Below are positions 27,776-63,926 of a DNA stretch of 64,000 nt, piece after piece (within the stretch, counting starts at the first letter, position 1; every line of letters starts with the position of its first letter). A program made the translations under genes and the position numbers. Origin of the DNA: Hyphomicrobiales bacterium (GTDB lineage Bacteria > Pseudomonadota > Alphaproteobacteria > Parvibaculales > Parvibaculaceae); the NCBI GenBank assembly GCA_016124805.1, contig WGND01000003.1, forward strand, positions 62,001 to 126,000, in the 5' to 3' direction. Under the pieces are notes generated by a model. That model saw only the letters and a program-made list of their open reading frames with translations, searched no databases and was not told the DNA's origin.

Positions 27776-27781
27776 CACTGC

Positions 27782-28498: not shown

Positions 28499-28499
28499 C

Positions 28500-32543: not shown

Positions 32544-32554
32544 ATTGGATTTTT

Positions 32555-33232
32555 CTACTTAACACCAGTGACGATGGTGTTATAGAGCCCTGTTCGGAGC
32601 GCCTTGTAATGCATAAGCAGCTTGCGAAAGGGATGATTGGTTGGAAGTTTGCGCCCAAAGCGACCACCTTGTGAACCAGGCTGACATGTCCCATTCACGA
32701 TATCCAATCCGCAGACGGACATCAGATTGCCAAGGCTCAAGGGCGTCCATGAGTTCAGATGCATGTCCGTGTCATTGGCTGTCCAGACTCTGTGCCGCTT
32801 CAGGAGCAATGGCATTTCGCACGGCACTACAATTCGTATCAGCCCGCCCGGCTTCAGGACACGATATAACTCTCTGATTGTGTGGGCAGGGTTTTCGACA
32901 TGCTCCATGGCGTGATTGCTGATAATCAAATCCACGGACTGATCGGCAATTTTTGAAATATCCGGAACGACGAGATCCAGTTTGGCTTGAGCGACTTCGC
33001 TTGCGACCGGGTTCACCTCCACGCCGATTCGTTTTGAGGCAGGCAGCGCGCTGAGGACGCCACCGGTGCCACATCCAAAATCCAGAATGGTGATGTGCTC
33101 CGAGGCAAGGTCCTCAAACAATCGGGCCCTTTGTATCTGGATGGCGGTGGAGCGGGCTGAGCTTCTCTGCTCATGATATTGCTTGCCCTTTTCGCCCTGA
33201 TAAAGGTCTACAGCTGGCATGGCGGAATCCAT
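32555..33232 (-). CDS. Class I SAM-dependent methyltransferase
   Basis: 225 residues: ITILDFGCGTGGVLSALPASKRIGVEVNP is SAM motif I, followed by VDLIISNHAMEHVENPAHTIRELYRVLKPGG, the pattern of the Methyltransf_11 group. Convergent with the preceding methyltransferase (11-base gap). Composition is closer to the GC-rich genes than that of 31869-32543. An ATG four codons further in (33220) is an alternative start. Likely another sugar methylation activity; acceptor unknown. Confidence 0.88.
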   Translation of the reverse strand: MDSAMPAVDLYQGEKGKQYHEQRSSARSTAIQIQRARLFEDLASEHITILDFGCGTGGVLSALPASKRIGVEVNPVASEVAQAKLDLVVPDISKIADQSVDLIISNHAMEHVENPAHTIRELYRVLKPGGLIRIVVPCEMPLLLKRHRVWTANDTDMHLNSWTPLSLGNLMSVCGLDIVNGTCQPGSQGGRFGRKLPTNHPFRKLLMHYKALRTGLYNTIVTGVK

Positions 33233-33442
33233 TTACTAAGATTGAAGTCATCTAAATGCAATAATGATGCGAAGCACATAGCACGCAGATGACAATATCT
33301 ACTTGAAGACAAAAATACACGCTAATCGATTGATAAAACAAGCCAGTTTGGTGATTCTGTCTGATTGTCTGGGATGGATTTAAGTCTTATTGTGAATGCT
33401 GTTTCGTTATCCTCCTTCTCTATTATTTGATCGTAGCTGCTT

Positions 33443-34660
33443 ATGGACCCGCAACCCGATGTCATTTTTGTGATCCATCAGATCGGCAGCGGGGCCGATG
33501 GCGGGATACAGAGCATCAGTGAACTGATTGCTCACACACCTATGCTGAAAAAGCAGATCATCACCAATATAGAGACGGCTGCCTCAGCGCGATGGGCCCG
33601 TCACGGGACGGTGACGATCTGGCCCAGTCAGGAAGACCTTCATGGCGCACGCGGGCGTGGGGTTCGCCATCGTTTCAGGCAGATTGCCTATCGGTTGCGC
33701 AACAATCTTCGTATGTTCTTGTTGCTTCGTGCCACAGGCGCACGGGTGGTTCATTGCAATGACCGGCGGGCCTTTCTCAGCGTGGCTTTTGGTGCGCGGC
33801 TTGCCGGGGCTCGTGTGATCCTGAATGTGCGTGACACATTGCATGTCGGCTCGCGCTCCACAGGGCTTTGGCGGCTGTCGCTTCGGCTCTCGTCGCTTTT
33901 TCTGGTTCTCTCCCAGGAGATGAAGGCTGCCTGGATGAAGGCACTGCTACCGACCTCTGATGAGCCGGACCAGCGTCGGAAATTTGCCTATCTCTACAGC
34001 ATTGTTGATACAGAGATTTGCCAGCCCGTGACCGGGGCTGCCCGCGCCGATTTACGCCGGGCGCTGGGCATGCCGGAGGCGGCTTTTGCTCTCAGTTATG
34101 TGGCGCGTGTGGACCACAAGAAGGCGCAACTGGCCTTCATTCAGCAGGCGTTGCCGGGTCTGGTGGCGACAATTCCTTCTCTCTCGGTGCATTTTGTCGG
34201 GGATTTCCAACCCGGGACGGATCCTTATTGTGCGGAATGTGCCAAGGCTGTCGAGGCTTTGGGTCTTGGTCACGTCGTTCATTTTGAGGGCTATAGTCCC
34301 ACGCCGGCACATTGGTATGCCGCGTCAGATATCGTGGCGCTTGCTTCTGTACGCGAGGGACTGCCCCGTGCCGTGATTGAGGGGCTGGCCTGCGGCGCGA
34401 GCGTGGTTTCTTTTGATGTCTGCTCCGTCCGGGAAATCCTGGAAGGACATGATTGCGGGCGTGCTGTGCCCTCAGGCGATTATGATGCCTTTGTGAAGGC
34501 GGTCGTGGCGCTTTACCAGGACGAGGCAGAGCGGGCCCGTCTCGCCGGACATGGCGTGGAGATTGCAAGACAGCTTTTCCGATCAGATGTTGCAGGGCGT
34601 GCCTATAGCGATATCATCAGGGAATTATCGGGCCGGAAGGGCTTGGGGGCGCTGTCATGA
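33443..34660 (+). CDS. Glycosyltransferase family 4
   Basis: 405 residues, GT-B fold. N-terminal half: HQIGSGADGGIQSISELI and HCNDRRAFLSVAFGARLAGARVILNVRDT. C-terminal nucleotide-sugar half: FALSYVARVDHKKAQLAFI, HFVGDFQPG, and VREGLPRAVIEGLACGASVVSFDVCSVREIL, the E-x7-E motif of GT4. It is the first gene of a coupled set: its stop overlaps the Wzy-like start (ATGA). Donor sugar unknown. Confidence 0.9.
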   Translation: MDPQPDVIFVIHQIGSGADGGIQSISELIAHTPMLKKQIITNIETAASARWARHGTVTIWPSQEDLHGARGRGVRHRFRQIAYRLRNNLRMFLLLRATGARVVHCNDRRAFLSVAFGARLAGARVILNVRDTLHVGSRSTGLWRLSLRLSSLFLVLSQEMKAAWMKALLPTSDEPDQRRKFAYLYSIVDTEICQPVTGAARADLRRALGMPEAAFALSYVARVDHKKAQLAFIQQALPGLVATIPSLSVHFVGDFQPGTDPYCAECAKAVEALGLGHVVHFEGYSPTPAHWYAASDIVALASVREGLPRAVIEGLACGASVVSFDVCSVREILEGHDCGRAVPSGDYDAFVKAVVALYQDEAERARLAGHGVEIARQLFRSDVAGRAYSDIIRELSGRKGLGALS

Positions 34661-36234
34661 GCACTAGCGGGGAATTATACAATCCTGTTCCATCCGGGCC
34701 TTCGTCTGCGTTGAAGGGGTCACCCTTCGTTACGATTCCGATGGGATTCCGGCTTCTCGTGATCGGCTATGTCCTGCTCTATCACCTCATTTTTCCGGGT
34801 ATTGACGCGGCCACCTCGCTAACGATGGAGCCATCGCTGCTGGTGCCGCGTTTTCTGGCGGAATGTCTCTATACTTTTCTGGTTCTCCTGCCCTTTATCT
34901 TCTACCGGTCATCCTATGGCTGGCTTCATCCCATGATGTTTCCTTTTCTGCTGTCACTACTTAAGACATTCTTCAAGCAGCCGATGCACCTCATCGCGCC
35001 ATTCAAGTTGCCTATCGCCAGTTTTGATCCCACGACCTATAGCTATGCAATTGTTCTTCGCTATCTTCCGCTGGAAGATTTGGCTATGGAGCGACTGCAG
35101 ATGACGTTGCTGCTTTCCTTCTTCCTTGTGATCTATTATCTGGCATTTTTTTTCTATCGTCCTGCTGTGCCAAAGCAGCATTTCGCAACACCGCACCTCG
35201 GGCGCCTGTGGATTGTATGTGCTGCCGCGATGAGCATAAGCATTCTTACAGCTGTGATATTTATTCTGATGAACGGAGGGCTGACCAAGCATCTTCAGCT
35301 TTTAACGGGTGGCCGATATGAGGCGCTGGGTGGCAGTGGTCAATATATTGAAATCGTCGGCGCGGGTGTCATCGCACTGATGCTGCTCGCGGCTTATAAC
35401 AAGCGAATATGGACCAATCTCTTTTTTTTGGGCTTCGGTACATTGCTCTTTGTTTTTTCAATTCTTGTATCCGGCTCACGTAGTTCAGGCGTCTATCTGA
35501 TCATGATGATGGGGATGGTCTTCATGTTTCAGCAACGCACCATTCCATGGCGGTTCGTCATCATTGGCGCCATGGTAGGCTTTATTGTTTTCGGTGCTTT
35601 TGGCATGCTGAGGAAACAGCATAATTCGAGAGATCTTGACTGGTCCGTGGTGACGTCGCTGGATGTTGAGAGCTGGGTCGATGCGGCAGCTGATGAATCA
35701 TTGAAGCGATTGAATGAGGAGTCTTCGTTCGCTGCCTTCGTGGGGACGGGGCAGTATGGATTGCTGGGCGGCAAGACTTACATCGCCGCTTTGTTTTTCT
35801 GGGTGCCGCGGGCGCTCTGGCACGATAAGCCGCGTGGTGCAGGCGCTTACAATAATTATCAGAATTTTTCCGGACGGACATTGGATACCGATGAGATACC
35901 AACCGTAGGCGGTCGACCTGTCGGGGCTGAAGTTGAAGCTTACTGGAATTTCTGGATATTTGGGGTGGTCGTTCTGGCCCTTTTCGTCGGTATGCTGCAT
36001 AAATGGCTGGCGACGTTGATATTGATTTATCCGCGTGAACCGCTCTATTGGGTTCTCTACATCACGATCATCACGTCGTTTTCCGGTACAGCTTTGTCGA
36101 TCGTTGGAACGGCCCGCTCTCTGGCTGTTCTGGCGGTTCTTGTTGTACTGGCCGGCATCGTTCAATTCAGGCAGAGACATGTGGCATCGCGTTCCCGGCG
36201 CGGTGTGGCATTTTCAGACGAGGCGACAGGATGA
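34657..36234 (+). CDS. Wzy-like polysaccharide polymerase (multi-pass membrane protein)
   Basis: 525 residues with about 10-12 hydrophobic segments and a long loop between the later ones (about 325-415; VLPRALWHDKPRG-like segment WVPRALWHDKPRG). The motif ILVSGSRSSGVYLIMMMG is typical of oligosaccharide repeat-unit polymerases. These proteins share little sequence, so the call rests on topology, this motif and position between a glycosyltransferase and two sulfotransferases in a locus with Wzx and Wzc. Overlaps both neighbours by four bases. Confidence 0.8.
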   Translation: MSTSGELYNPVPSGPSSALKGSPFVTIPMGFRLLVIGYVLLYHLIFPGIDAATSLTMEPSLLVPRFLAECLYTFLVLLPFIFYRSSYGWLHPMMFPFLLSLLKTFFKQPMHLIAPFKLPIASFDPTTYSYAIVLRYLPLEDLAMERLQMTLLLSFFLVIYYLAFFFYRPAVPKQHFATPHLGRLWIVCAAAMSISILTAVIFILMNGGLTKHLQLLTGGRYEALGGSGQYIEIVGAGVIALMLLAAYNKRIWTNLFFLGFGTLLFVFSILVSGSRSSGVYLIMMMGMVFMFQQRTIPWRFVIIGAMVGFIVFGAFGMLRKQHNSRDLDWSVVTSLDVESWVDAAADESLKRLNEESSFAAFVGTGQYGLLGGKTYIAALFFWVPRALWHDKPRGAGAYNNYQNFSGRTLDTDEIPTVGGRPVGAEVEAYWNFWIFGVVVLALFVGMLHKWLATLILIYPREPLYWVLYITIITSFSGTALSIVGTARSLAVLAVLVVLAGIVQFRQRHVASRSRRGVAFSDEATG

Positions 36235-37166
36235 CGCTCTGGCTCCCCAATTTCGTGATCGCCGGTGCACCCCGCTGCAGTACATCGGCCGCATTTTCAT
36301 ATTTTGTCGCACATCCGCAGGTGGTCGGCTCATCGGTGAAAGAAGTCCAGTATTTTATGGATCGTACCTCCGCGCTCTTTCATCCTGAAGCCAATTCACA
36401 GGATTTTGGTCTGGAGCGATATTCCCGCTTTTTTGAAGACGGCATGAAAAGGAAGCCGAACGCGATCATCCGCATGGAGGCAACCCCCGGTTATCTGTTC
36501 CAGACCGAGGCCTTGATGAAATTGCCTGACCTGGAAACTTCCCCCCGTTTTCTCTTTCTCGTGCGGCGCCCTTCGCAACAGCTTTACTCAAGCTATCTCT
36601 ACTCGCGCAATCAGGCCGCCAATCTGCCGCTTGATGTCAGCTTTGAGGAATTTGCGTTTGGCTCACCACGCATGGACAAGGCCCGCAATGAGTTTCATCG
36701 CTACGCACTTGACTATGTGCGCTACGTCAATTTTCTCGAGAAGTGGCGCGCGCGCTGTCCGGATGACCGGATGCGCGTGTTGGTCTTTGAGCAGTTCAGC
36801 GACAACCTTTCAGAAAATATGTCGTCTCTTTCGACGTGGCTTGGTATCGACCCGGGCTTTTACGAGAACTTTGTCTTCCGGCGTGAAAATGCGAATATTC
36901 AGGTTCGAAGTGCTGCCGTTCATCGCGCTGCGCGCCTTGTGCGGCAGCTGCTTCCTGCCTCTGTAAGAGGCGCTGCAAAGGGGCTATATGCGCGCGCCAA
37001 TTCTTCAAGTTTTGATCCGAGCGCAGACCGACCACTTGATGTCATGGCGGCCATTGATCAAGCCGTCGCTTCTGATAGCGAAAGACTGGCTGCTTCATTT
37101 GATCTTGACCTGTCAGATTGGTTTCTGCCGGTCAAGCAACGTCGACCTGAGATGGCTACCACATGA
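36231..37166 (+). CDS. Sulfotransferase (PAPS-dependent), first of a pair
   Basis: 311 residues. The 5'-phosphosulfate loop is near the start, FVIAGAPRCSTSAAF, and the 3'-phosphate-binding region follows in FLFLVRRPSQQLYSSYLYSRN (RxP...S). These are the two PAPS sites of sulfotransferase-family proteins. It likely sulfates a sugar of the polysaccharide. ATG 36231 overlaps the polymerase stop; the longer in-frame version from 36048 lies inside the polymerase gene. Its own stop overlaps the start of the second sulfotransferase. Confidence 0.88.
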   Translation: MTLWLPNFVIAGAPRCSTSAAFSYFVAHPQVVGSSVKEVQYFMDRTSALFHPEANSQDFGLERYSRFFEDGMKRKPNAIIRMEATPGYLFQTEALMKLPDLETSPRFLFLVRRPSQQLYSSYLYSRNQAANLPLDVSFEEFAFGSPRMDKARNEFHRYALDYVRYVNFLEKWRARCPDDRMRVLVFEQFSDNLSENMSSLSTWLGIDPGFYENFVFRRENANIQVRSAAVHRAARLVRQLLPASVRGAAKGLYARANSSSFDPSADRPLDVMAAIDQAVASDSERLAASFDLDLSDWFLPVKQRRPEMATT

Positions 37167-37945
37167 GTCTTGTTGATCGCGTCAGAAAAATTCAACCAGC
37201 CATTATCAGGGCACTGACGGGGCATCCCGTTATATTTCATCATATCCCCAAATGCGGGGGAACGTCGCTTGGCCGTGCCCTGCGTATGCGCTACCTGCTG
37301 TCGCAAAAAACGGTTCATCCGCTGCATAGCTATGCGGCGGTCTCCGCATTTTGTCCTGATGCGAGTTTGCAGGATCAGATGAATGCAATGCGCGAATTCA
37401 GAGAGCAGATGCTTTGCTATTTGATTTCAGAGAGAGTGGTCTGCATATCGGCGCATGTGCATTACAGCAATGCTGCGCAGAAGATGACAGATGGTCGTTA
37501 TCGGTTCATCACGCTACTGCGCGATCCGGTGCAGCGTTTCATTTCTCATTATTATCACAGCTATAACCGACCGGATTATTCGCGCATTACATTGCCATTG
37601 GAGGCTTTCCTTGAGACGCCGCAGGCAATTGAGCTGGGGGCAACCTATTCCGAATATCTTTCCGGATTGTCCGCGGGCGCAGATTTTTCGGATCGTGGAG
37701 CCGTCGCTGCTTCAATTTCCAACCTCGAGAAATTTGATGCCATTGGACATTTGCATGACCTCAACGGTTTTGAGGAAAGGCTCAAGACCATTCTCGGTGT
37801 ACGCATTCGCATTGGTCATGAAAATGCGGGTATGCAAAAGGGGCGTGACTATCGCGAATGCATTGCGCCGGAACTCATGAAGAAAATTGAGGCGCTTTGT
37901 GCACCTGATGTCGAAATCTATCAGGCAACATTGCCACGGAAATGA
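37163..37945 (+). CDS. Sulfotransferase family protein, second of a pair
   Basis: 260 residues. PAPS 5' loop FHHIPKCGGTSLGRAL is the signature of the Sulfotransfer_2-type carbohydrate sulfotransferases, and FITLLRDPVQRFISHYYH is the 3'-phosphate site. Distinct in type from the preceding sulfotransferase, so probably a different sugar position. Translationally coupled to it by a 4-base overlap. Convergent with the acyltransferase gene. Confidence 0.9.
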   Translation: MSLVDRVRKIQPAIIRALTGHPVIFHHIPKCGGTSLGRALRMRYLLSQKTVHPLHSYAAVSAFCPDASLQDQMNAMREFREQMLCYLISERVVCISAHVHYSNAAQKMTDGRYRFITLLRDPVQRFISHYYHSYNRPDYSRITLPLEAFLETPQAIELGATYSEYLSGLSAGADFSDRGAVAASISNLEKFDAIGHLHDLNGFEERLKTILGVRIRIGHENAGMQKGRDYRECIAPELMKKIEALCAPDVEIYQATLPRK

Positions 37946-44472: not shown

Positions 44473-45780
44473 CTAACCAATGCCGACGCCGTCATAGGCA
44501 AAGCCTGCGGCTTTCATTTCCGAGGGCTTGTAGATGTTGCGCAGATCTACCAGAACCTTTTCTTTCATCGTTTTGGACAGGCGTTCAAAATCGAGCGCGC
44601 GGTACTCGTTCCATTCGGTGATGATGACAAGCGCTGCGGCATCCTTGGCGGTTGCATATGGGTTGTCGCAATAGGCGACCTCCTTCGGCAGCATGTGCTT
44701 TGCCTCTTTCACGCCCTGCGGATCATGGGCCTGAACCCTGGCGCCTTTGGCGATGAGACCCGGCACGATATCAAGTGAGGGTGAATCCCGCATGTCATCG
44801 GTATCCGGCTTGAATGTCAGGCCAAGTACGCCGATGGTCTTGCCGTCGACGGAGCCGCCACAGGCTTCAACCACCTTGTCGACCATTCGCAACTTGCGCG
44901 CGTTATTGACGGCAACCACGGCCTCCACGATGCGGGTCGGCGCGCCATATTGCTGGGCAGTGCGGACAAGAGCCAGCGTGTCCTTGGGAAAGCAGGAACC
45001 ACCATAGCCGGGGCCTGCGTGAAGGAATTTCTTGCCGATGCGGCCGTCGAGCCCGATGCCGCGGGCCACGTCCTGCACATTGCCGCCCGCCTTTTCGCAG
45101 AGATCGGCGATCTCGTTGATAAAGGTGATCTTGGTAGCAAGGAAGGCATTGGCCGCATATTTGATGATCTCGGCGGTGCGGCGGCTGGTGAAGACGATCG
45201 GAGTCTCATTAATATAAAGCGGGCGATAAAGCGCGCGCAGCACCTCGCGGGCGCGTTCATCCTCAGCTCCACAGACCACACGGTCGGGCCGCTTGAAATC
45301 ATCAATGGCCGCACCCTCGCGCAGAAATTCCGGGTTGGAGGCAACGGAGAAGTCGCCATCGGGCCGGGTCTTGCGAATAATGGCTTCAACTTCGTCAGCC
45401 GTGCCGACAGGCACCGTCGATTTGGTGACGATGACCGTATAGCCTTGCATATGGGCGGCGATCTCTTCGGCGGCGGCATAAACATAAGAGAGGTCGGCAT
45501 GGCCGTCGCCGCGTCGGGTCGGTGTGCCCACGGCAATGAAAACGGCATCGACATCTTTGACGGCTTCAGCCAGATCGGTTGTAAAAGAGAGGCGGCCTGA
45601 AAAGCGGTTGCCATTTACCAGCACATCAAGGCCGGGTTCATAGATCGGAATCTCGCCACGCAGCAGGGCCTCGATTTTCTCCTCATTTTTGTCCACGCAA
45701 ATGACTTCATGGCCGAAATCAGCAAAACAGGCACCAGAGACAAGGCCGACATATCCAGAACCGATCATCGCAACGCGCAT
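44473..45780 (-). CDS. ugd: UDP-glucose 6-dehydrogenase
   Basis: 435 residues. NAD-binding N-terminus [26 protein letters not shown], central [13 protein letters not shown] with the catalytic cysteine, and [17 protein letters not shown] at the C-terminal domain. It oxidises UDP-glucose to UDP-glucuronate, feeding UDP-xylose synthase downstream and the UDP-glucuronate 4-epimerase encoded divergently. First gene of a six-gene minus-strand operon. UDP-glucose comes from galU at 60261-61157. Confidence 0.97.
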
Positions 45781-51897: not shown

Positions 51898-53424
51898 GTG
51901 GGGGTTATGCAGGGTACGGGGGTAGAGTCAGCTGAAACTTTTGGTCAGCATATCGGCCAGGGAGCCGCGCCATCGGCTGTCGCGGATATGATGAAGTCGA
52001 TGCCGCCTCAATTTGGGTCTCCGGGTGTCGTCACCGAGCGTGCCTCGCAGCAGGTGCTGGCTGATCTTTGTGCTGCCTTTGATTTCCTGACCGTATTGGC
52101 CTGCGCCATTGTCGCCAAATATTTTTACATCGACGCGTATTTGGACAGGGCGACGCCCCTACCCGAATATCTCATCATCGGCCTGATTGGCGCGAGCGTT
52201 GCCACCTTTATTCTGCGTCGGCAGGGGGCCTATTCGATTGATGTTCTCGGCAGTACGCGCGGCTATGTCAGGCGTGCCCTGATTGCCATTCTTGTCGCCG
52301 CCTTCTTCCTGTTTGGCGTTGGCTATTTTCTGAAAATGTCTCAGTCCTATTCGCGTGGCTGGATCATCAGCTGGTTTGCCCTTTCATTTCTTGTACTGAT
52401 TGCCAACCGGTTCCTGACCTCCCTTTATCTGAAGCGCTGGATATCGAAGGGGATATTTGCCAAGCAGGTCGCCATTTTCGGCAGCGGCATGATTGCTAAA
52501 TATCTGCTGACACATCTCAGGCAGGACACCTCACGCATGAATGTGGTGGGTGTGTTTGATGATGCCTATGGTTCTACTACGTCAGCTGTTCCCGCGTCTG
52601 GCGGCCTGTCGGAGCTCATTCGTCTGGCACAGCGAACACGCATCGACGAGGTTGTGATCGCCTTGCCGCTCTCGGAAACCCAGCGCATTGAGAAGCTGTT
52701 TGCTGAGCTCTCGATTCTGCCGAGCGCCATTTCCCTCTGCCCGGATATTGTGGCTTTCCGTCTGCGTCCCAAGCGCATGGTGGATCACAATGGTGTCATG
52801 CTGATGGAACTTGCCGGACGTCCGCTGGACGACTGGAGCCCGATTATCAAGTCACTGGAGGATAAAATCATTGCCGGCTTGCTGCTGACATTTGCAGCCC
52901 CCTTGATGATCCTGATTGCCGCGATGATCAAGCTCGACAGCCCGGGCCCGTTCTTTTTCCGGCAGCGGCGCCATGGTTTCAACCATGAAGTGATTTCCGT
53001 TCTGAAATTCAGGACCATGCGGGTGGCGGAAGACGGCCCGCAGGTGACCCAGGCCCAGAAGAATGATCCGCGCGTGACGCGGGTCGGGCGTTTTCTACGC
53101 CGGACGAGCCTTGATGAATTGCCGCAGCTCATCAATGTGTTGATGGGCACCATGTCGCTGGTGGGGCCGCGTCCCCACGCCCTTGCCCATAATGAATATT
53201 ATGCCGCCACGCTGGAGCGCTATGCCGCCCGCCACAAGGTCAAGCCGGGTATCACCGGCTGGGCACAGATCAATGGTTTCCGGGGCGAAACCGATACGCC
53301 GGAAAAAATGCGCAAGCGTGTCGAATATGATCTCTACTACATTGAGAACTGGTCGATCTGGCTGGATATCAAGATCATTCTGCTGACACCCTTTCTCGGC
53401 CTCATTGGCAAGAATGCGTTTTGA
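51898..53424 (+). CDS. Undecaprenyl-phosphate sugar-1-phosphate transferase (WcaJ-like)
   Basis: 508 residues: four N-terminal transmembrane segments, a Rossmann CoA_binding_3 domain (about 195-310, VAIFGSGMIAKYLLTHL), a fifth membrane helix and the C-terminal bacterial sugar transferase domain (IKLDSPGPFFFRQRRHGFNHEVISVLKFRTM; RRTSLDELPQLINVLMGTMSLVGPRPHA). It starts repeat-unit synthesis by loading a sugar phosphate, usually glucose or galactose, on undecaprenyl phosphate. GTG 51898 or ATG 51907 may be the start; neither has an ideal binding site. No other initiating transferase is in the window. Confidence 0.94.
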   Translation: MGVMQGTGVESAETFGQHIGQGAAPSAVADMMKSMPPQFGSPGVVTERASQQVLADLCAAFDFLTVLACAIVAKYFYIDAYLDRATPLPEYLIIGLIGASVATFILRRQGAYSIDVLGSTRGYVRRALIAILVAAFFLFGVGYFLKMSQSYSRGWIISWFALSFLVLIANRFLTSLYLKRWISKGIFAKQVAIFGSGMIAKYLLTHLRQDTSRMNVVGVFDDAYGSTTSAVPASGGLSELIRLAQRTRIDEVVIALPLSETQRIEKLFAELSILPSAISLCPDIVAFRLRPKRMVDHNGVMLMELAGRPLDDWSPIIKSLEDKIIAGLLLTFAAPLMILIAAMIKLDSPGPFFFRQRRHGFNHEVISVLKFRTMRVAEDGPQVTQAQKNDPRVTRVGRFLRRTSLDELPQLINVLMGTMSLVGPRPHALAHNEYYAATLERYAARHKVKPGITGWAQINGFRGETDTPEKMRKRVEYDLYYIENWSIWLDIKIILLTPFLGLIGKNAF

Positions 53425-55198: not shown

Positions 55199-56620
55199 AT
55201 GATACATCCAGACAATGGTCTTGCCCGGGAAATCATCGAGATTTATGACGCGCGCGGCAGGCAGCGTTATGGCCTTGAAGATATCAGCCAGCTTCAGCAT
55301 GCCCTTCAGACAGCGGCGCTGCTTGAAAAGGCGGGCGCGACACCGGCGCTTGTCCTTGCCGGCCTGCTCCATGATGTGGGCCATATGATTCACAAGCTGG
55401 GTGAGAACCCGGCAGGGGACGGGATCGACGATCGCCATGAAATCCTTGGGGCGAAATGGCTCGCCAAACGCCTTCCCGCCTCTGTTGCAGAACCTGTTCG
55501 TCTCCATGTTGAGGCCAAGCGCTATCTCTGTGGAACAGACCCCGACTATGCCAGCCGATTGGCGCCTGATTCCGTTCTCAGTCTGAAGCTGCAGGGCGGC
55601 CCCATGGCGCCTGATGAAGCGGCAGGCTTTCTGGAAAAGCCCTTTGCGTCCGATGCCGTTTTGCTGCGGCGACTTGATGATGAGGCCAAAGATCCGGACG
55701 CCTGCACCCCGCCGCTTGCCTATTTTCTCTCGCTCTTGCCGCTCGTTCCCATTGATGAGGCGGCGCGGGATGTTTTTGCGCGAGAGGGGGTGCTGGTGCT
55801 GCGGGGTTTCTTTTCGGATGATGACGTTGCCGCTCTGCAGGCCTTTTCGCACGACATGGGCACGCGTGCCCAATCACTGCTGACGGCGGCCCTCCATCAG
55901 GGCTTGTCTTCCGGTGATCTGCTTCAAAGATATCCCGATGACCTCATTCCGGTCGCCGAAGCATCCGACCCGGCCTTGCTCTGTCGCTTTGAATATCTTA
56001 TCGGGTCGCATCCCCGCTTTGCCGATCTTGTGACGGATCGCATTGCGCCCGCCATTTCATGCCTCACGGGTGAGAGCTTTATTCCTTTCAAGGACAAGGA
56101 GAATGAAAAGCTTCCCGGTGGCGGTGCCTTCGGGCCGCATCAGGATTTTGCCGCCTATCAGGCTTTTGGGCCGCGCTATAATGTGACGGCGATGGTGTCG
56201 ATTGACGCGGCGACGAGAGAAAATGGCTGTCTGGAATTTGCGACGGACTGGCGAGCCTATGCCGCGCGCCATCCTGAGGCCGTTGAAATGAGTATCGAAG
56301 ATCGACCGCTGCTGCGTTTTGAAAAGGGTGGTCCCAAAAATGGGGACATTGCGCCTGAGATCGCAGCGTCACTCACATGGCAACATGTCGAGACGGGACC
56401 AGCTGACCTTGTGCTTTTTGATTCATTCGCCCCGCATCGCTCGGCGTCCAATCAGAGTGCGGCGGCACGCCGCGCGATGTTTCTCACCTTCAATGCCGCG
56501 CGCGAGGGTGACTGGTATGCGCGCTATTATCAGGAAAAGCGGGCGCATTATGATGATCCCAAATTCCACGTCTCAACACCGACCCTTCATGCGGGCAGCG
56601 TGACTGAAGACAGGAACTGA
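55199..56620 (+). CDS. Fusion of PhnZ-like HD oxygenase and PhyH/PhnY-like 2-oxoglutarate dioxygenase
   Basis: 473 residues. Residues 1-180 form an HD domain with the residues I recall for the mixed-valence di-iron oxygenase PhnZ at nearly the same positions: Tyr24, Glu27, His34, His58-Asp59, His80, His103 and Asp160. Residues about 185-473 form a phytanoyl-CoA dioxygenase domain with HxD (His314, Asp316), distal His413 and an arginine pair (about 424) for 2-oxoglutarate. PhnY hydroxylates 2-aminoethylphosphonate at C1 and PhnZ then cleaves the C-P bond, so this chain may do both steps. TmpA/TmpB act likewise on trimethylaminoethylphosphonate. AGGAG lies nine bases before the ATG. Substrate unproved; no phosphonate transporter nearby. 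Confidence 0.88.
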   Translation: MIHPDNGLAREIIEIYDARGRQRYGLEDISQLQHALQTAALLEKAGATPALVLAGLLHDVGHMIHKLGENPAGDGIDDRHEILGAKWLAKRLPASVAEPVRLHVEAKRYLCGTDPDYASRLAPDSVLSLKLQGGPMAPDEAAGFLEKPFASDAVLLRRLDDEAKDPDACTPPLAYFLSLLPLVPIDEAARDVFAREGVLVLRGFFSDDDVAALQAFSHDMGTRAQSLLTAALHQGLSSGDLLQRYPDDLIPVAEASDPALLCRFEYLIGSHPRFADLVTDRIAPAISCLTGESFIPFKDKENEKLPGGGAFGPHQDFAAYQAFGPRYNVTAMVSIDAATRENGCLEFATDWRAYAARHPEAVEMSIEDRPLLRFEKGGPKNGDIAPEIAASLTWQHVETGPADLVLFDSFAPHRSASNQSAAARRAMFLTFNAAREGDWYARYYQEKRAHYDDPKFHVSTPTLHAGSVTEDRN

Positions 56621-58410
56621 TCAATTTCGCCAAGGATCTCTGACGTAGAGAGATTTATGAGCGTTTTCCCGCTGAGCGCCCCCAACAGGGCCTGCGCCCA
56701 TGTCGCGTGTGGGCTTGCGTCACCGGGCGCCACAACGAGTCTGTCGATGTGGTCGAGCCCCAGACCATTTTCGTAGATATCATCGGCATCAAGTTCGATC
56801 AGGGCGGCGGTGCTTGTGGGTTCGCTGCAGGCCCTCTGCGCGCCGACAAGATTGTCGTGTCGGCCTTTGGTGGCCAGATGACCGGCAGCGAAGAAGCCCT
56901 CTCGTGATGCCCAGGTGAAATCGGGATGACGTGATGCCAGTTTCGCAGCGATCTGAGTGGCGAGCGCTCCATCATCGCCGATTACGCCAATGGTCGGGAT
57001 GCGTCCGCTGGCCCCACGCGGGAACCAGCTCTCGATAATGTCGGCCTCTTCACCCAGGATGAGACCGGGATTGACATTGAGTTCGCAAAATCCGCCGCCG
57101 ATATCGAGATAGGATTTCGAGATGTCGGTTGTCATGAAATCCAGTCCGGCCAGATCGATCCCGAAAAGCGCTGCTGCCCGGATGCCCAGGCGAATATTGT
57201 CGGGATGGGTGATGTCGGTGACCAATTCGATCGTGCCGCCTGCGGCGCGATTGGCCTGGCTCTTGAGGATAATCTTTTCGCCCTTGGTGGGGACTGACTC
57301 AGGCGTGAGATTTTGTCGCGCAAGAAGAAATTCTGTTTCTTCGTTGAGCGCAATGGGTTTCATGCGGACGTCACTTCGATCCTGCGCCCGTTCCCTGTTG
57401 GTGGCCTCAATCAGTTGACGGATGGAAAGAGCGCCGTCCCCGATAATATGGGCAGGCGAAAGACGTCTGACGGAGAGGACTTTGCCGTTCAAAATCGTAA
57501 TGCGATGGCTGTCGCCCGGCAGGAAGGTTTCAACGATGACCTTGCCGAAAGCCGAGGCGATTCTGTAAGCGCGTTTGACGTCTGCATCCGTCGTCAGATT
57601 CGTGCTGACACCATTGCCATAGTCGGAGGCAAGCGGCTTTACGACCACCGGGAACCGGAGGCGGCGGGCGGCATTGACCGCCTCATTTTCGTTGCGTGCC
57701 AGATATTGCATGGGCGCTGGAAGGCCCTGGGCCCGCAGCGTGGCACCGGTTGCATATTTGTTGGAGGAGAGCGCGGTCGAAATATGGCTTGTGGCATCTG
57801 TAAAGCTTAAGGACGATCTTTGCCGATGGATGCCCTGACCCAGAGAGAGGGGGCGTGCTTCATGTGTGACAGCTGACCACGGGATGCGGCGCTCTTCCGC
57901 AATCCGGATATAGTGAGATGTTCCCAACACATAGGTATTGTTTTCGACAAATTTTTCGATGGCATTCCGGGCCGGGGTCAGGCTTTTCCCGTCAGGTACG
58001 TGAAGCAGACATTCCGTGACATAGCTCGCCAGTTGCCCCGCAGCTGTTGCGATGTTGCTCAGGCGATATTCAAAAAAAAGCCTGTTGGCGGCATTTTCCC
58101 CCTCGTCATTCGGCAATCCGCAAAAGACAACCGGCATACCCGCCCAGCGCTGGAACCGGATGATGGCGCTTGCGAGGACGTCATTGATGCTTTGAGGTGG
58201 TTGCGTAGTGGAAAGGGCAGGAAGTGCTTTCAGATTCTGCACAACATGGGAGGGGCATGTCTCTTCCAGCAGATCCTCTATGCGACGTGCCAGCAGGGGC
58301 AGGTCGCTTGCCGGACTCTGCGGGAGATCGTGGCTGGCGAGCATAACAGGTTTGAGATAATACCGGTTTGGGCCCCGAAAGCGTTTCAAGACCTTCAAAC
58401 TGTTTCCCAT
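56587..58410 (-). CDS. Cyanophycin-synthetase-like ATP-grasp protein lacking a functional Mur domain (copy B)
   Basis: 607 residues, against about 870 for CphA1. The N-terminus (KVLKRFRGPNRYYLKPVML) and a cyanophycin synthetase ATP-grasp region (about 200-470: FPVVVKPLASDYGNGVSTN; RRLSPAHIIGDGALSIRQLIE; VPTKGEKIILKSQANRAAGG; LDIGGGFCELNVNPGLILG) are well kept. The following Mur-ligase-like part is short and its P-loop, TGTNGKTTT in CphA1, is replaced by VIGDDGALATQ. ATG 58410 is chosen for homology and a GGGGAAA upstream; ATG 58446 is an alternative. It ends overlapping the convergent HD-dioxygenase gene by 34 bases. Ligase substrate unknown. Confidence 0.85.
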   Translation of the reverse strand: MGNSLKVLKRFRGPNRYYLKPVMLASHDLPQSPASDLPLLARRIEDLLEETCPSHVVQNLKALPALSTTQPPQSINDVLASAIIRFQRWAGMPVVFCGLPNDEGENAANRLFFEYRLSNIATAAGQLASYVTECLLHVPDGKSLTPARNAIEKFVENNTYVLGTSHYIRIAEERRIPWSAVTHEARPLSLGQGIHRQRSSLSFTDATSHISTALSSNKYATGATLRAQGLPAPMQYLARNENEAVNAARRLRFPVVVKPLASDYGNGVSTNLTTDADVKRAYRIASAFGKVIVETFLPGDSHRITILNGKVLSVRRLSPAHIIGDGALSIRQLIEATNRERAQDRSDVRMKPIALNEETEFLLARQNLTPESVPTKGEKIILKSQANRAAGGTIELVTDITHPDNIRLGIRAAALFGIDLAGLDFMTTDISKSYLDIGGGFCELNVNPGLILGEEADIIESWFPRGASGRIPTIGVIGDDGALATQIAAKLASRHPDFTWASREGFFAAGHLATKGRHDNLVGAQRACSEPTSTAALIELDADDIYENGLGLDHIDRLVVAPGDASPHATWAQALLGALSGKTLINLSTSEILGEIDQFLSSVTLPA

Positions 58411-58461
58411 ACTTGTTGCTTTCCCCGCGGCGATCCCTTGACCCATCTTATAGTGGAAGTA

Positions 58462-60264
58462 TCAGTTTGTGGGGGCTGTCAAAAGGGCTTCAAGCTTTTT
58501 GCGGGCATCATCGGGGCCGGTCACTTCAATGACCCGGCTGCTGAGTGATTTGAGGAGACCGGTTGCGGCGGCTGTTTCGGGCCCATCCCCGTCGGATTTG
58601 TTGACCAGAACAAGTACCGCCAGCCGGTCAATACCGAGCCCATGCCGTGCGATATCCTGCGTGTTCAGTTCCATCAGTGCTGCGGTGCTGGATGGTTCGC
58701 TCCAGGCCCGCTGCGTGCCTGCGAAATTGTCCTGTGGCTCCTTGGCGGCCAAACTGCCATCGACATAAAAACCCTGCTTTGAAGCCCAGCTAAAATGTGG
58801 ATGGGTTTGCAACATCTGTGCAGCAATCTCTGAAGCGATGGTGCCGCCATCATTGAGAATGCCGATCGTCAGGATGCGGCCTTGATGGGGGCCGGGAAAC
58901 CATTTATCGAAAAGATATTCGCGCTCGTCAAACATGAAGGCGGGGGTGACATTGATTTCGCAAAAGCCACCGCCCACTTCCAGATAGGATTTGGCAATGT
59001 CGGGACAGAGAAAATCCAGACCCGCCACATCAATGCCCATCACATGGGTAGCGCGCTCGGCAAGCCATTTGTTGTCGGGATGCATAATGTCGGTCACGAT
59101 CTCATAGCTGCCGCCGAGTACCAAATTGCTCTGGCTGCGTAAGGCTACTTTCTGCTCGTCGACAGGAATGCTGGTTCGGGTCAGACCGGCGTTTTTAATG
59201 AAGTCGTCCGTCATCTGATCAAGCTGAATGGGCCAGAGGTTCTGACCGGCCCGTGCCCTGTTGGCGCCCGCTACAAGACCGGTGATGTCCGTCTTGCCGT
59301 CGCCGATGACGTGGGCAGGAATCTGATGGCGGGCGGTATGCAATTTGCCGTCGATGACCGTCAGGCGATAATGCTCGCCCGGCAGATGCGTTTCCACGAG
59401 GACGGGGCCATGTGCGCGTGCAGCATTATAGGCTTGTTTGACTGCTGCTTCATTCATCAGGCCGGTGCTGACAGCTGTCCCCTTGTCGGTGCCCAGTGGT
59501 TTGATAACGACGGGATAGCCAAGCGCGCGGGCGGCCTGGATCGCGGCCTCCAGTGTCGCAACAACATGCTGATGGGGCGCCGGAATGCCATGGCTTTGGA
59601 GAATCCGGGCGGCGGCATTCTTGTTCGTCGAGAGGCTGGCGCTGATGGTGCTGGTTCTGTCGGTAAAGTTTCCATAGACGCGCTGCGCCAGATGCCCTTC
59701 ACCGAAAGAGAGAAAATGCCCATCCTGCCGCAGGTCGCGCCAAGGAATATTGAGGCGTCGCGCCAGCCGCAGATAGGTTGCGACATTTCGCAAATCCATG
59801 CTTTTTGCCGTGAACTGGCCAATAGCCTTTGCAGCCTGCCTGTCGGCATGGGGGATGCCAGGGTCACTCAGCTCATAAAGGTGCAGGGCCAGTGCCAGCG
59901 CATTGATAGTGACGGGCTTGACCGCATATTCAATGGCAATCGTTTCGGCGGTTTCACGCGTGCTCACCACAGCCCAGTGGCTGACAGGGAAGCCGATCCA
60001 GCGCTGCAGCGTGACGACCATGCCGGCGATGAGGCGTCCGGTTGTCAGTGGTGCATCTGACGCCGGGCGTGTCGGCAGGTCCGGCTCGAAAAAGTCAGCA
60101 CCCGACGGACGGCATTGGGCAAGAATATGATGGAGACGCGCCTCGCGTTCTTTCAAGGTTTCTTCGGACTCTCTTACATGACCAAGTTCAGCATGCATCA
60201 TCGGTCGCGGGCTTTGGAGAGAGGGGCCTGCAATCCAAAACTGCTTCTGAAGTGTTGGCTTCAT
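58462..60264 (-). CDS. Cyanophycin-synthetase-like ATP-grasp protein lacking a functional Mur domain (copy A)
   Basis: 600 residues, diverged paralogue of the next gene. ATP-grasp region about 225-470: YPVVIKPLGTDKGTAVSTG, HQIPAHVIGDGKTDITGLV, IPVDEQKVALRSQSNLVLGG, LEVGGGFCEINVTPAFMF. As in copy B, the Mur-like part begins at ILTIGILNDGGTIA where the P-loop should be, keeps GFYVDG and the SSTAALMELNTQDIARHGLGIDR strand, then stops. This plan matches CphA2, which polymerises beta-Asp-Arg dipeptides with the ATP-grasp domain alone. The N-terminal 100 residues are more diverged than in copy B. Its ATG overlaps the galU stop, so it is cotranslated with galU. Confidence 0.85.
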   Translation of the reverse strand: MKPTLQKQFWIAGPSLQSPRPMMHAELGHVRESEETLKEREARLHHILAQCRPSGADFFEPDLPTRPASDAPLTTGRLIAGMVVTLQRWIGFPVSHWAVVSTRETAETIAIEYAVKPVTINALALALHLYELSDPGIPHADRQAAKAIGQFTAKSMDLRNVATYLRLARRLNIPWRDLRQDGHFLSFGEGHLAQRVYGNFTDRTSTISASLSTNKNAAARILQSHGIPAPHQHVVATLEAAIQAARALGYPVVIKPLGTDKGTAVSTGLMNEAAVKQAYNAARAHGPVLVETHLPGEHYRLTVIDGKLHTARHQIPAHVIGDGKTDITGLVAGANRARAGQNLWPIQLDQMTDDFIKNAGLTRTSIPVDEQKVALRSQSNLVLGGSYEIVTDIMHPDNKWLAERATHVMGIDVAGLDFLCPDIAKSYLEVGGGFCEINVTPAFMFDEREYLFDKWFPGPHQGRILTIGILNDGGTIASEIAAQMLQTHPHFSWASKQGFYVDGSLAAKEPQDNFAGTQRAWSEPSSTAALMELNTQDIARHGLGIDRLAVLVLVNKSDGDGPETAAATGLLKSLSSRVIEVTGPDDARKKLEALLTAPTN

Positions 60265-61157
60265 GGATGAGACGACTTTGTCAACCGATCAAGAATGGGC
60301 CGAAAAGCCGGGGCGAGATCGGGGCGGTCCAGCGCATAGGCCACATTTGCCGAGAGATAGCCCACCTTGTCGCCGCAATCATAGGTCGTGCCGTCAAATT
60401 TATAGGCTGAGAAATTCTGTTCCCCCAGAAGCGAGATCATGCTGTCGGTGAGCTGGATCTCGCCACCGGCACCGGGTTTCTGTTTTTCGAGATGGGCAAA
60501 AATTTCAGGCTGCAGAATGTAACGCCCTGAAATGATCAGATTGGAGGGCGCATCCTCGATCTTCGGTTTTTCGACCATGCCAGTGATGGCGTGGGTTCGT
60601 TCGTTGAAAGTTTCGCCCAGTGCGCAGACGCCATAACGATTGACATGTTCATGCGGGACTTCCTCAACGGCGACCACATTGCCGCCCCGCGCATTATAGG
60701 TCTCGATCATCTGCGCCATGCAGCCGGGCTTTGACTGGATGAGCATGTCGGGCAGTGACAGGGCGAAGGGCTCAGCGCCAATAATTTCACGTGCGCACCA
60801 GACGGCGTGGCCGAGCCCCAGCGGTTCCTGCTGGCGCACGAAGCTTGCCGCCCCTGCCGGTGGCCGACTTCCTTCCAGCATTTCGAAGGACGCTGTTTTC
60901 CCGCGCGCCTTGAGCGTTGATTCAAGTTCGAAGGCCATATCGAAGTGATCTTCAATGGCCCCTTTGCCGCGACCCGTCACAAAGACGAAATGCTCAATGC
61001 CTGCTTCGATGGCTTCTTCGACGGCATACTGGATGACCGGCTTGTCAACAACAGTGAGCATCTCCTTCGGGATGACCTTGGTCGCGGGCAGGAAGCGTGT
61101 GCCGAGGCCTGCGACGGGGAAGACGATTTTGCGGATTTTACGCGGTGCGGTGGTCAT
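60261..61157 (-). CDS. galU: UTP-glucose-1-phosphate uridylyltransferase
   Basis: 298 residues. KIVFPVAGLGTRFLPATKVIPKEMLTVVDKP is the nucleotidyltransferase signature; RQQEPLGLGHAVWCAREI and GMVEKPKIEDAPSNLIISGRYIL are typical of GalU. It makes UDP-glucose, the source of UDP-glucuronate, UDP-xylose and UDP-galacturonate for the locus at 40-47 kb. First gene of an operon with the two ATP-grasp genes, overlapping the first by four bases. Confidence 0.97.
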   Translation of the reverse strand: MTTAPRKIRKIVFPVAGLGTRFLPATKVIPKEMLTVVDKPVIQYAVEEAIEAGIEHFVFVTGRGKGAIEDHFDMAFELESTLKARGKTASFEMLEGSRPPAGAASFVRQQEPLGLGHAVWCAREIIGAEPFALSLPDMLIQSKPGCMAQMIETYNARGGNVVAVEEVPHEHVNRYGVCALGETFNERTHAITGMVEKPKIEDAPSNLIISGRYILQPEIFAHLEKQKPGAGGEIQLTDSMISLLGEQNFSAYKFDGTTYDCGDKVGYLSANVAYALDRPDLAPAFRPILDRLTKSSHP

Positions 61158-61310: not shown

Positions 61311-62183
61311 CTAGACGTCAAATCCCCAGGCTTTCACATCAATCCCGTATTCGTGATGGAGCTGCTTCATGTCATCCTTCAGGGCGTCATGGATCTGAGA
61401 CAAATTGGCAGGCGTCAAAGTATAGAGCGTGGCGGCTGCTTTCAGCAGGGCGACGCGACGGTCGTCTGGCATGGCGTTGACAAAACGGGTCAAGACGTCT
61501 GCAGGCGCTTTGCTTATTTCATTACCTGCCGCATTCAGCAAAGCCCGGATATAGGGCAGCAAATAGAGTTTGTCGCTTTCATGGCTTTGGCGCGGTTCAA
61601 GCGGCACATTGTCATCAATGTCCAGATGCTGCAGCACCTCTCTGAATGTTTCGTTTGGGTGCGCTTTGAGCTGTTCGGCTGCCAGGACCAGAATTTGGTC
61701 CTTGCTGAAATGGCGCCGGTAGAGTGCAAGCTGATAATAATACTGGCTGACTGTGAGCGCGTGCTCATCGACATGTTCGCTTAATGGCGTGATGGCCCAC
61801 CCCTTGACGATCGACATCTGATATTGACTGCGGATGCGGTCATAAGGGTTGCGAACGAGATAGATCAGACGGGCACCCGGATTGAAGGCGTGGATTTTTT
61901 CTGCCGCATCGGGAAATATTGGTGCCTTGGTGTAATGCGTGCTTGCATCAATGGCGATGCGATGTCTGCCGGGTGCCCATTCGGTCCAGCGATCCAGATA
62001 GGTGTCAATCTCGCCGGGTGCGATTTCCTCGCAGCTAAAAATGCCCGGCTCCTTGTCGGCGCAGGGGCAGACATCGGGGTGGAGAACGAGGCTGTTGTAA
62101 AGCGCTGTGGTGCCGGCTTTCATGGCGCCGATGATGAAGTGCACATTATGGGGGGCGGGTCTTGATGTGTCGGGATGCGTCAT
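61311..62183 (-). CDS. Sulfotransferase domain protein, third in the window
   Basis: 290 residues. PAPS 5' loop FIIGAMKAGTTALYNSL and 3' site LIYLVRNPYDRIRSQY, the Sulfotransfer_1 pattern of heparan/N-deacetylase-sulfotransferase-like enzymes; EPGIFSCEE precedes a segment common in this group. It probably sulfates the polysaccharide or a lipid. Divergent from manC and on the galU strand, with a separate spacer of its own, so it may be transcribed alone or with galU. Confidence 0.9.
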   Translation of the reverse strand: MTHPDTSRPAPHNVHFIIGAMKAGTTALYNSLVLHPDVCPCADKEPGIFSCEEIAPGEIDTYLDRWTEWAPGRHRIAIDASTHYTKAPIFPDAAEKIHAFNPGARLIYLVRNPYDRIRSQYQMSIVKGWAITPLSEHVDEHALTVSQYYYQLALYRRHFSKDQILVLAAEQLKAHPNETFREVLQHLDIDDNVPLEPRQSHESDKLYLLPYIRALLNAAGNEISKAPADVLTRFVNAMPDDRRVALLKAAATLYTLTPANLSQIHDALKDDMKQLHHEYGIDVKAWGFDV

Positions 62184-62492: not shown

Positions 62493-63926
62493 ATGATCTA
62501 TCCTGTTATCCTTTCAGGCGGTGTGGGATCGCGGCTCTGGCCGACATCCCGCTCCGTCTACCCCAAGCAGCTGCTGCCGATCGTGTCGGACCGGGCCATG
62601 CTGATCGAGACGGCCGAACGTGTTTCCGATGCTGACCGCTTTGCGCGGCCCCTGATCATTTCCAATGACGAACATCGCTTTATCATTGCCCAGTTGATGT
62701 CAGAGGCCGGTCTTACCTCACTGGCGCATATGCTCGAACCAATGGGACGCAATACGGCGCCCGCAGCGGCTGCGGCGGCTGCCTTCATTCAGGCGCAGGA
62801 TGCCAAAGGCATTCTGCTTATTCTGCCCGCGGACCATCACATTACGAATATGGCCGCCTTTGACCGCGCCGTGGCTCAAGGCGCGCAGCTGGCCGCGCAG
62901 GGGCGGCTTGTAACATTCGGCATCCGGCCCAGCGCGCCTGAGACAGGCTATGGCTATATCGAACGCGGGCCGGCGCTTGATGCGGATGGCGCCTATGAGG
63001 TCGCGCGTTTTGTCGAGAAGCCGGATGCCGCTACTGCCGCCACCTATCTGGCCCATGGCGGCTATGACTGGAATGCGGGCATCTTCATGTTTCGTGTTGA
63101 CATGATTCTGGATGAGATGCGCCAGCATTGCCCCGAGATTGTGGCGCGGGCGACCGAGGCCGTTGTCAAGGCGCATCGCGATCTTGATTTCGTCCGCCTG
63201 CAGAAGGAGGCTTTTTCCGCGTCGCCCTCCGACTCGATTGACTATGCCGTGATGGAGCATACCGACAAGGCCGCCGTTATTCCCGTCGATATGGGATGGA
63301 GCGATATCGGTTCCTGGTCGGCGCTTTGGGATATTGGTGAGAAAGACGCCAATGCCAATGTCATTGTCGGCGACGTGATGACGGAATCGACGACGGACTG
63401 TTTTATCCGTGCCGAGAACGGACTGGTCGCCACGCTGGGGTTGAAAGATCTCGTGATTGTGCAGACCGATGATGTGACGCTGGTGGCTGATCGCAACCGG
63501 GTTCAGGATGTGAAGCTGCTGGTGGAGCGGGTGGCCGCCGCCGGACGCGATGAACACAAGCTGCATGCCCGTGTTTACCGCCCCTGGGGATATTTCGAGA
63601 GTCTGGATGCGGGCCCCCGTCATCAGGTCAAGCATCTGATGGTGCATCCAGGCGCGCAGCTTTCCCTGCAGCTTCATCACAAGCGTGCCGAGCATTGGGT
63701 GGTTGTGAAGGGGCAGGCGCGGGTGACGATTGGCGAGCAGGTCACGCTGCTGGGCGAAAATGCCTCGACCTATATTCCCATTGGTACGAAGCATCGGTTA
63801 GAAAATCCGGGCCCTGAGCCGCTCAGCATCATTGAGGTGCAGTCAGGTGATTATCTCGGTGAGGATGATATTGTCCGTTTCGACGATATCTATGGACGTG
63901 ATGTCAAAAATCCGGCGGCTGAATAA
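62493..63926 (+). CDS. manC: Mannose-1-phosphate guanylyltransferase / mannose-6-phosphate isomerase
   Basis: 477 residues, type II bifunctional enzyme. N-terminal guanylyltransferase: YPVILSGGVGSRLWPTSRSVYPKQLLPIV with the GTP loop, FVEKPDAATAATYLAHGGYDWNAGIFMF. C-terminal cupin isomerase (about 350-477): RPWGYFESLDAG, HPGAQLSLQLHHKRAEHWVVVKG. It supplies GDP-mannose to the two GMDs and perhaps to the Och1/Anp1-like domains at 13146-16640. Another reading frame starts within its last 26 bases. Confidence 0.95.
   Translation: MIYPVILSGGVGSRLWPTSRSVYPKQLLPIVSDRAMLIETAERVSDADRFARPLIISNDEHRFIIAQLMSEAGLTSLAHMLEPMGRNTAPAAAAAAAFIQAQDAKGILLILPADHHITNMAAFDRAVAQGAQLAAQGRLVTFGIRPSAPETGYGYIERGPALDADGAYEVARFVEKPDAATAATYLAHGGYDWNAGIFMFRVDMILDEMRQHCPEIVARATEAVVKAHRDLDFVRLQKEAFSASPSDSIDYAVMEHTDKAAVIPVDMGWSDIGSWSALWDIGEKDANANVIVGDVMTESTTDCFIRAENGLVATLGLKDLVIVQTDDVTLVADRNRVQDVKLLVERVAAAGRDEHKLHARVYRPWGYFESLDAGPRHQVKHLMVHPGAQLSLQLHHKRAEHWVVVKGQARVTIGEQVTLLGENASTYIPIGTKHRLENPGPEPLSIIEVQSGDYLGEDDIVRFDDIYGRDVKNPAAE

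Follow-up and report, generated by a model that had tools for sequence, protein, structure and literature searches.

The described enzymes that stand closest to the genes considered here are the cyanophycin synthetases CphA1 and CphA2. According to excerpts of the papers cited, CphA1 functions as dimers and tetramers (PMC9427784, PMC9262961), its N domain holds the primer-making motif HxxEH (PMC9262961), and CphA2 is without the P-loop and the lid of the Mur domain (PMC9427784). CphA is treated as one group in the excerpts of PMC11915815, cyanophycin is not mentioned in PMC8939145, and no title among the matches listed from Creative Commons-licensed PMC papers concerns CphA-like proteins outside cyanophycin. 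Here we describe two adjacent genes, ligase A and ligase B, which follow galU in a stretch of 64,000 nucleotides (the window) of contig WGND01000003.1 from a bacterium of the Parvibaculaceae. We favour, tentatively and with slightly less than even confidence, the reading that A and B are a duplicated, retargeted, Mur-dead pair of CphA-family ATP-grasp amide ligases, probably acting in an exopolysaccharide pathway.

The stop codon of galU and the ATG of ligase A overlap by 4 bases (ATGA) and A and B are spaced by 15 bases, which confirms the open reading frames, gene order and overlap given in a reading made beforehand from the letters of the DNA (the sequence-only reading); the pair is probably translated together with galU. 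At the other end, the 3' end of a convergent gene for an HD–PhyH fusion shares 34 bases with ligase B. The guanine–cytosine contents of A (57.5%), B (56.9%) and galU (57.0%) are alike, so that composition shows no mark of recent import. Promoter- and terminator-like matches around the unit are weak consensus matches only. Residues 1–12 of ligase B have a predicted local distance difference test score (pLDDT) below 50 in the AlphaFold model, and for this reason Met13 may be the true start. A PADLOC search had no match for A, B, the HD–PhyH protein or the sulfotransferase upstream of galU.

Pfam and NCBIfam searches find in both proteins an ATP-grasp domain and a partial, sub-threshold cyanophycin synthetase, matched over about the first 570 of 862–871 model positions [PRK14016: A 284.9 bits, B 316.3 bits, cut-off 877; TIGR02068: A 248.5, B 273.7, cut-off 850]. 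At the Mur P-loop site the GTNGKT of CphA1 is replaced by NDGGTI in A and GDDGAL in B; no P-loop had been overlooked by the sequence-only reading, whose claim of its loss in both proteins is borne out, and the Mur lid is absent as well. A and B are 38% identical, with a global alignment score of 961, whereas none of 50 shuffles exceeded -62. By domain the identity is 24% (N), 45% (G) and 41% (Mur remnant); the remnant looks maintained because its identity nears that of G and exceeds that of N. PDB sequence searches with both proteins place CphA1 chains at the top and CphA2 second. The AlphaFold models, made from input alignments of 30 sequences, have a pLDDT of 89.0 and a predicted TM score of 0.83 (A) and of 86.7 and 0.82 (B). 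Model A superimposes (VIA) on 7wae_C with Z 29.9 [583 residues, root-mean-square deviation (rmsd) 4.6] and on CphA2 (7ta5) with Z 27.1 (544 residues, rmsd 4.3), and model B has Foldseek TM scores, by query, of 0.79 to 7lgm_A and 0.71 to 7ta5. The predicted folds thus resemble CphA1 and CphA2 end to end, and among the matches listed by the fold searches there is no capsule amidoligase and no TupA-like entry, an absence to which we give no weight. The CphA2-like architecture first read from the sequence holds at this level: A and B share with CphA2 (7ta5, 8fxh/8fxi) the N–G–M layout, a length of about 600–640 residues, the kept ATP-grasp residues and the missing P-loop and lid, and with CphA1 the homologous N and G domains, the Mur core and the ATP-binding residues. 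It is this architecture and the match to 7ta5 that speak for a true CphA2-type system, in which A and B would make cyanophycin or a related polyamide by polymerizing beta-aspartyl dipeptides. We nevertheless regard such a system as very improbable, on account of the residues, the whole-length tree and the gene content described below.

Active-site residues are numbered as in TeCphA1 (PMC9427784); positions were transferred by eye through an alignment and then read from a MAFFT alignment. Of the 154 sequences collected, 98 have a P-loop and 53, among them A and B, have none; the remaining 3 are fragments. Four with contig-cut or variant P-loops (L056, L101, L110 and L063) were moved into the CphA1-type set, and one fragment (L033) and one protein of the N-acetylglutaminylglutamine (NAGGN) synthetase type (L011) were left out of the residue counts, the sets then being 102 CphA1-type and 45 other P-loop-less rows besides A and B. 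Ten presumed CphA2-type rows, used out of 21 such matches, are cyanobacterial proteins of 636–644 residues that are the second, shorter homologue in their genome. Both ligases keep N394 as well as K220, K261, R309, D431, E450 and N452, and these last six bear out at residue level the earlier claim that the ATP-grasp domain is apparently active. The residues for ATP, Mg and the acyl-phosphate are thus those of the ATP-grasp amide ligase superfamily, with the exception of H267, which is replaced; in CphA1 it too serves the acyl-phosphate.

On the substrate side the changes (A/B) are E215 to S/A, H267 to K/Y, R323 to Q/L, S396 to V/A and R458 to M/I, so that only N394 is kept of the CphA1 residues for Asp and primer (R323, N394, S396, R458 and H267). 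In TeCphA1, as described in excerpts of PMC9427784, R323 lies close to both the gamma-phosphate and the incoming Asp's beta-carboxylate, S396 lies beside that Asp, and H267 and R309 are thought to stabilize the acyl-phosphate. R323, N394, S396 and R458 are each found in 102/102 CphA1-type rows, where position 267 is His in 85, Gln in 11, Lys in 5 and Phe in 1. The CphA2-type rows have R323, N394 and S396 in 10/10, Lys at 267 in 10/10, and Phe, Asn or Tyr at 458, whereas the other P-loop-less rows (n = 45) have Arg323 in 35, Ser396 in 23 and Arg458 in 6. Being kept in every CphA1-type and CphA2-type row, R323 and S396 are, in these alignments, the informative losses. Against the CphA2-type invariants R323, S396 and K267, A has Q, V and K, and B has L, A and Y. 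The lost Arg and Ser argue against a CphA2-type activity, while the Lys267 of A agrees with one. GshF carries Tyr or Phe at 267, like B; with Lys in A as in the CphA2-type proteins, neither change need abolish catalysis. We had taken the loss of His267 as a bar to CphA2 activity and dropped this, since CphA2-type proteins have Lys there. The HxxEH motif is absent from A and B; it is present in 85/102 CphA1-type, 1/45 short and 0/10 CphA2-type rows.

The phylogeny with CphA1, CphA2 and other CphA-like families that the sequence-only reading had proposed places A and B as sisters among the P-loop-less CphA-like proteins. The whole-length tree, built from 50 chosen rows, joins the two with support 100/99, followed by L051/L053 (98/97) and then L175 (98/87); CphA1 proper (16 rows, 100/98) and CphA2 (4 rows, 100/100) form separate clades. 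Constraining A and B to group with CphA2 is rejected on this tree [approximately unbiased test (p-AU) 3e-7], as is grouping with CphA1 (p-AU 1.2e-5). By contrast, a quick tree of the G domain only (90 rows) does not reject the grouping of A and B with CphA2 (p 0.41), a result in favour of a CphA2-type system; on that tree, placing A or B beside L051–L053 outscored the tree first found, and the quick trees alone settled neither the A–B nor the CphA2 relation. A and B are sisters and adjacent, a tandem duplication among P-loop-less CphA-like proteins, as the earlier claim of tandem, diverged paralogues had it. Membership of CphA1 fails on the P-loop and lid, the HxxEH motif, the profile cut-offs, the Asp-pocket residues and the tree. 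For CphA2, which had been suggested as the family, membership fails on the residues and is mixed on the tree, A and B having their own clade in the whole-length tree and the G domain alone being undecided.

The adjacency of the paralogues also bears on an obligate heteromer, with one subunit catalytic and the other structural, that would make an amino-acid polymer. The oligomeric state of CphA1 cited above and the presence of two or more CphA-like genes at 6/37 loci of short homologues (see below) are in keeping with such a complex, which is nevertheless improbable given that the checked ATP-grasp residues are intact in both proteins.

No protein of the own genome matches above the CphA1 cut-off: A and B are the sole proteins of their type, and the other 14 rows match the model only in part, in its ATP-grasp or Mur section. 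Cyanophycinase has no match in the 40 genomes of the family, the own included (isoaspartyl dipeptidase was not searched for genome-wide). The check for cphA1 and cphB elsewhere in the genome, which had been advised, thus came out empty, and the dipeptide supply on which a CphA2-type system would draw was not found. Within the genus, A and B occur only in their own genome (1/27), and a pair after galU is present in 1/40 family genomes. Three of the 40, the own included, match at E ≤ 1e-40; the other two have one more distant gene each, of 608 or 638 residues, adjoining a GT25-like glycosyltransferase (label by eye). Matching genomes number 20/385 in a class sample (E limit 1e-50), 9/398 in a phylum sample (1e-75) and 14/293 from the order of genome G420 (1e-50), with at most three or four candidates scored per genome; among these candidates we saw no other locus that combines two members of the A/B subgroup. 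A scan of genome contigs gave L051–L053, from marine Gammaproteobacteria, at E 4e-101 to 1e-85, the next match being at 1e-61 (best 80 of at least 542 relatives). At 36–38% identity these are the nearest relatives among the matches listed. Like A and B they are P-loop-less and have lost Arg323 (Gln); unlike A and B they are single genes, keep Ser396 and lie outside polysaccharide loci. A single-protein scan of genome contigs gave no match, and a scan of viral contigs no relative of A or B.

Neighbourhoods were compared between 37 P-loop-less (short) and 35 CphA1-type loci, chosen by us among those fetched. The sets are not independent (6/37 come from genome G425), among the short loci L136 is a fragment and L088 has a P-loop-bearing gene too, and on one side the sequence runs for less than 6 kb at 11/37 (for less than 1 kb at L136, L226 and L229). 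With a cyanophycinase seed taken from a Sphingobium plasmid, at a locus belonging to neither set, and a search span of 6 kb, a cyanophycinase-like open reading frame lies near 33/35 CphA1-type loci (all except L063 and L102) against 0/37 P-loop-less loci. Cyanophycinase is not strictly defining, as many CphA1 genomes are without it (excerpts of PMC10206079). Two or more CphA-like genes are present at 6/37 short loci (L088, L140, L147, L226, L227 and L228), in line with the expectation that homologues occur in pairs; one partner at L147 is weak (54 bits) and one at L088 is P-loop-bearing. The expected company of sugar genes is found in part: a sulfotransferase, glycosyltransferase or type I phosphodiesterase lies near 7/37 short loci (L139, L141, L144, L150, L168, L169 and L227), of which 4/37 (L139, L144, L150 and L168) remain once matches of seeds to their own locus are excluded, the seeds having come from the window and from loci where such genes were spotted by eye. 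Raw counts for short against CphA1-type loci are 4/37 and 12/35 (glycosyltransferase), 3/37 and 0/35 (sulfotransferase) and 3/37 and 0/35 (phosphodiesterase), and a general tie of short CphA-like genes to sugar genes was not found in this comparison.

Several of these loci are noted in their own right. At L227 (G919, 3422–13327) two short P-loop-less CphA-like genes lie among four sulfotransferases and a GT2 glycosyltransferase. At L139, L144 and L168, from different genomes, a short CphA-like gene stands beside a type I phosphodiesterase, with a GT2 glycosyltransferase also at L144 and L168. L228 (G732, 4258–9761) encodes an AMP-binding enzyme fused to a CphA-like part, adjoining the short gene L175 and a thiamine-pyrophosphate enzyme; from its genes, an amide product of a new sort is possible there. 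Type I secretion genes lie near the short homologue at L226 (by eye) and at the Microvirga plasmid locus L021 (annotated). The betaproteobacterial genome G425 (Caenimonas sp.) has seven CphA-like matches (L063 and L164–L169), of which six are short and lack the Mur P-loop. To judge from these neighbourhoods, the P-loop-less family seems to have several uses outside cyanophycin.

The case for an exopolysaccharide role rests on the surroundings of the pair (Table 1). The window carries a nearly complete Wzx/Wzy exopolysaccharide locus, with an acyltransferase, epimerases, two GDP-mannose dehydratases and further glycosyltransferases besides the genes listed; two sulfotransferases are above the Pfam cut-offs. 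The polysaccharide setting claimed earlier is therefore upheld (UDP-glucose dehydrogenase, Wzx, Wzy, Wzz, OPX and sulfotransferases). The UDP-glucose dehydrogenase would make UDP-glucuronate, a carboxylate donor, and from its genes the polymer is inferred to be acidic and sulfated. With one match in each of 36/40 family genomes and none in 4, galU is a single-copy core gene of the family. Among 14 same-genus regions, ManC, the usual gene on the other side of galU, lies no more than 1.2 kb from it in 10, and WcaJ is beside galU in 5. The same-strand gene after galU is a UDP-glucose dehydrogenase in 5/14 (L234, L237, L242, L244 and L245), Wzy in 1/14 (L236) and A/B in 0/14. That the slot varies and holds pathway genes in 6/14 supports a polysaccharide role of A and B and is no proof of it. 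Of the coupling to galU claimed by the sequence-only reading, the overlap with ligase A stands in the own genome, whereas conservation does not (1/40 family genomes).

Table 1. Features of the window. Single positions are given for the genes of the export/assembly part.
Feature	Position	Strand	Evidence
OPX protein	22489
Porin	24109
Wzz-kinase	25448
Wzy/ligase	28500	minus
Wzx	30334
Glycosyltransferase	33443
Polymerase-like	34657		28.2 bits, below the cut-off of 40
Sulfotransferase, weak match	36048		below the cut-off
Sulfotransferase	37163		above the Pfam cut-off
Export/assembly part of the exopolysaccharide locus (all rows above)	22489..37945
UDP-glucose 6-dehydrogenase type enzyme	44473..45780	minus	PF03721 226.6 bits; TIGR03026 473.9, over cut-off; TuaD 529.2, under cut-off 700
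WcaJ-type undecaprenyl-phosphate glucose phosphotransferase	51898..53424	plus	TIGR03023 507.2 bits, cut-off 410.75
Ligase B, paralogue of A, same architecture, 619 residues	56587..58446	minus
Ligase A, N domain, ATP-grasp G domain and truncated Mur remnant without P-loop, 600 residues	58462..60264	minus
galU, UTP-glucose-1-phosphate uridylyltransferase	60261..61157	minus	TIGR01099 349.3 bits, cut-off 326.8
Sulfotransferase, 153 bases upstream of galU	61311..62183	minus	PF13469 66.3 bits, cut-off 27
ManC, mannose-1-phosphate guanylyltransferase/isomerase	62493..63926	plus	TIGR01479 661.4 bits, cut-off 372.95

In the amide-ligase reading that we favour, the Wzx/Wzy exopolysaccharide locus would have an acidic, sulfated product, and the pair would fill the variable position that follows its core gene galU. 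ATP would phosphorylate a carboxylate, and an amino acid or peptide, held in the altered G-domain pocket, would attack the acyl-phosphate through its amine; this mechanism is taken from the family (PMC9427784) and agrees with the kept residues. The pocket would have departed from Asp and cyanophycin, and the N domain and Mur remnant would provide fold support or hold the acceptor only. The most likely role would be amidation of a carboxylate (e.g. glucuronate) in the exopolysaccharide pathway, or synthesis of an amino-acid piece that is attached to it, A and B acting on two different substrates in sequence or as one heteromer. Glucuronate or a precursor is chosen as the acceptor because of the locus and of a precedent from the Campylobacter capsule, where the ATP-grasp domain of Cj1438C, of another type, amidates glucuronate at the C6 carboxylate (excerpts of PMC11800379). 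Cj1438C differs from A and B in being a TupA-like ATP-grasp domain fused to a GT2 domain. The evolutionary form of the proposal, a two-gene amide ligase that arose from cyanophycin synthetase by loss of the Mur half and duplication and that adds amino acids or a short polyamide to an exopolysaccharide, is possible but on the doubtful side.

Several points weigh against a ligase pair dedicated to the exopolysaccharide. Since H267 serves the acyl-phosphate and R323 lies at the gamma-phosphate in TeCphA1, their loss could mean weak or no activity. The CphA2-type proteins are also without His267 and Arg458 (10/10 rows), so that those two losses tell little about the substrate. Sugar and sulfate neighbours are a minority, the 7/37 loci all being ones that supplied seeds, and without own-locus matches the short loci retain a glycosyltransferase in 3/37, a phosphodiesterase in 3/37 and a sulfotransferase in 0/37, against a glycosyltransferase at 12/35 CphA1-type loci. 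L051–L053 each occur as one gene, and their neighbours are a permease, an aminotransferase and a dehydrogenase (by eye), not sugar genes. Lastly, insertion behind a core gene could be accidental. An accidental site is part of the alternative in which A and B make a small peptide or an osmolyte-like amide unrelated to polysaccharide, comparable to the product of NAGGN synthetase. The NAGGN synthetase model matches the ATP-grasp part of both proteins (128.2 and 131.7 bits, cut-off 569), and the position of the nearest relatives away from sugar genes, the type I secretion genes at L226 and L021 and the AMP-binding fusion at L228 point the same way. We hold this alternative to be unlikely, because ligase A overlaps galU within an exopolysaccharide locus and the slot after galU holds UDP-glucose dehydrogenase or Wzy in 6/14 same-genus regions.

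Other genes of the window were noted in passing. The WcaJ–galU stretch that contains the ligases also contains, at 53457–55038, a Crp-like regulator (by eye) and a fatty-acid hydroxylase (weakly OlsE-like); the stretch with regulator, hydroxylase and ligases is missing from the five same-genus regions that have WcaJ beside galU. The HD–PhyH gene (55199–56620, plus strand) codes for a phosphonate-degradation HD domain (TIGR03276, 204 bits, cut-off 214.6) fused to a PhyH oxygenase and, by its domains, looks like a phosphonate oxidation enzyme of the PhnZ–PhnY type. A phosphonate link through this protein and one near L036, which we take to be DUF1045-like, was dropped, as both seeds matched only their own place. 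At 18185–20403 (plus) a gene for an FGE-sulfatase/DinB protein is followed by one for a histidine-specific methyltransferase (PF10017), presumably an EgtB/EgtD-like pair for ergothioneine. Two DUF1989 proteins, a biotin/carboxyltransferase protein and an allophanate hydrolase at 647–7710 (plus) look like a urea carboxylase cluster.

Cyanophycin synthetase is usually viewed as a one-product family. The loci compared here contain many P-loop-less relatives, mainly proteobacterial among the sampled genomes, with changed pockets and, in the loci examined, no cyanophycinase nearby. The galU pair offers a defined example of such ligases with a possible part in modifying an exopolysaccharide, which would add a route to amino-acid-decorated glycans together with new amide-bond-forming enzymes. 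If the proposal is true, there would be a glycan-modifying branch of the cyanophycin family, beside a broad set of P-loop-less CphA-like ligases of Proteobacteria that have gone from cyanophycin metabolism.

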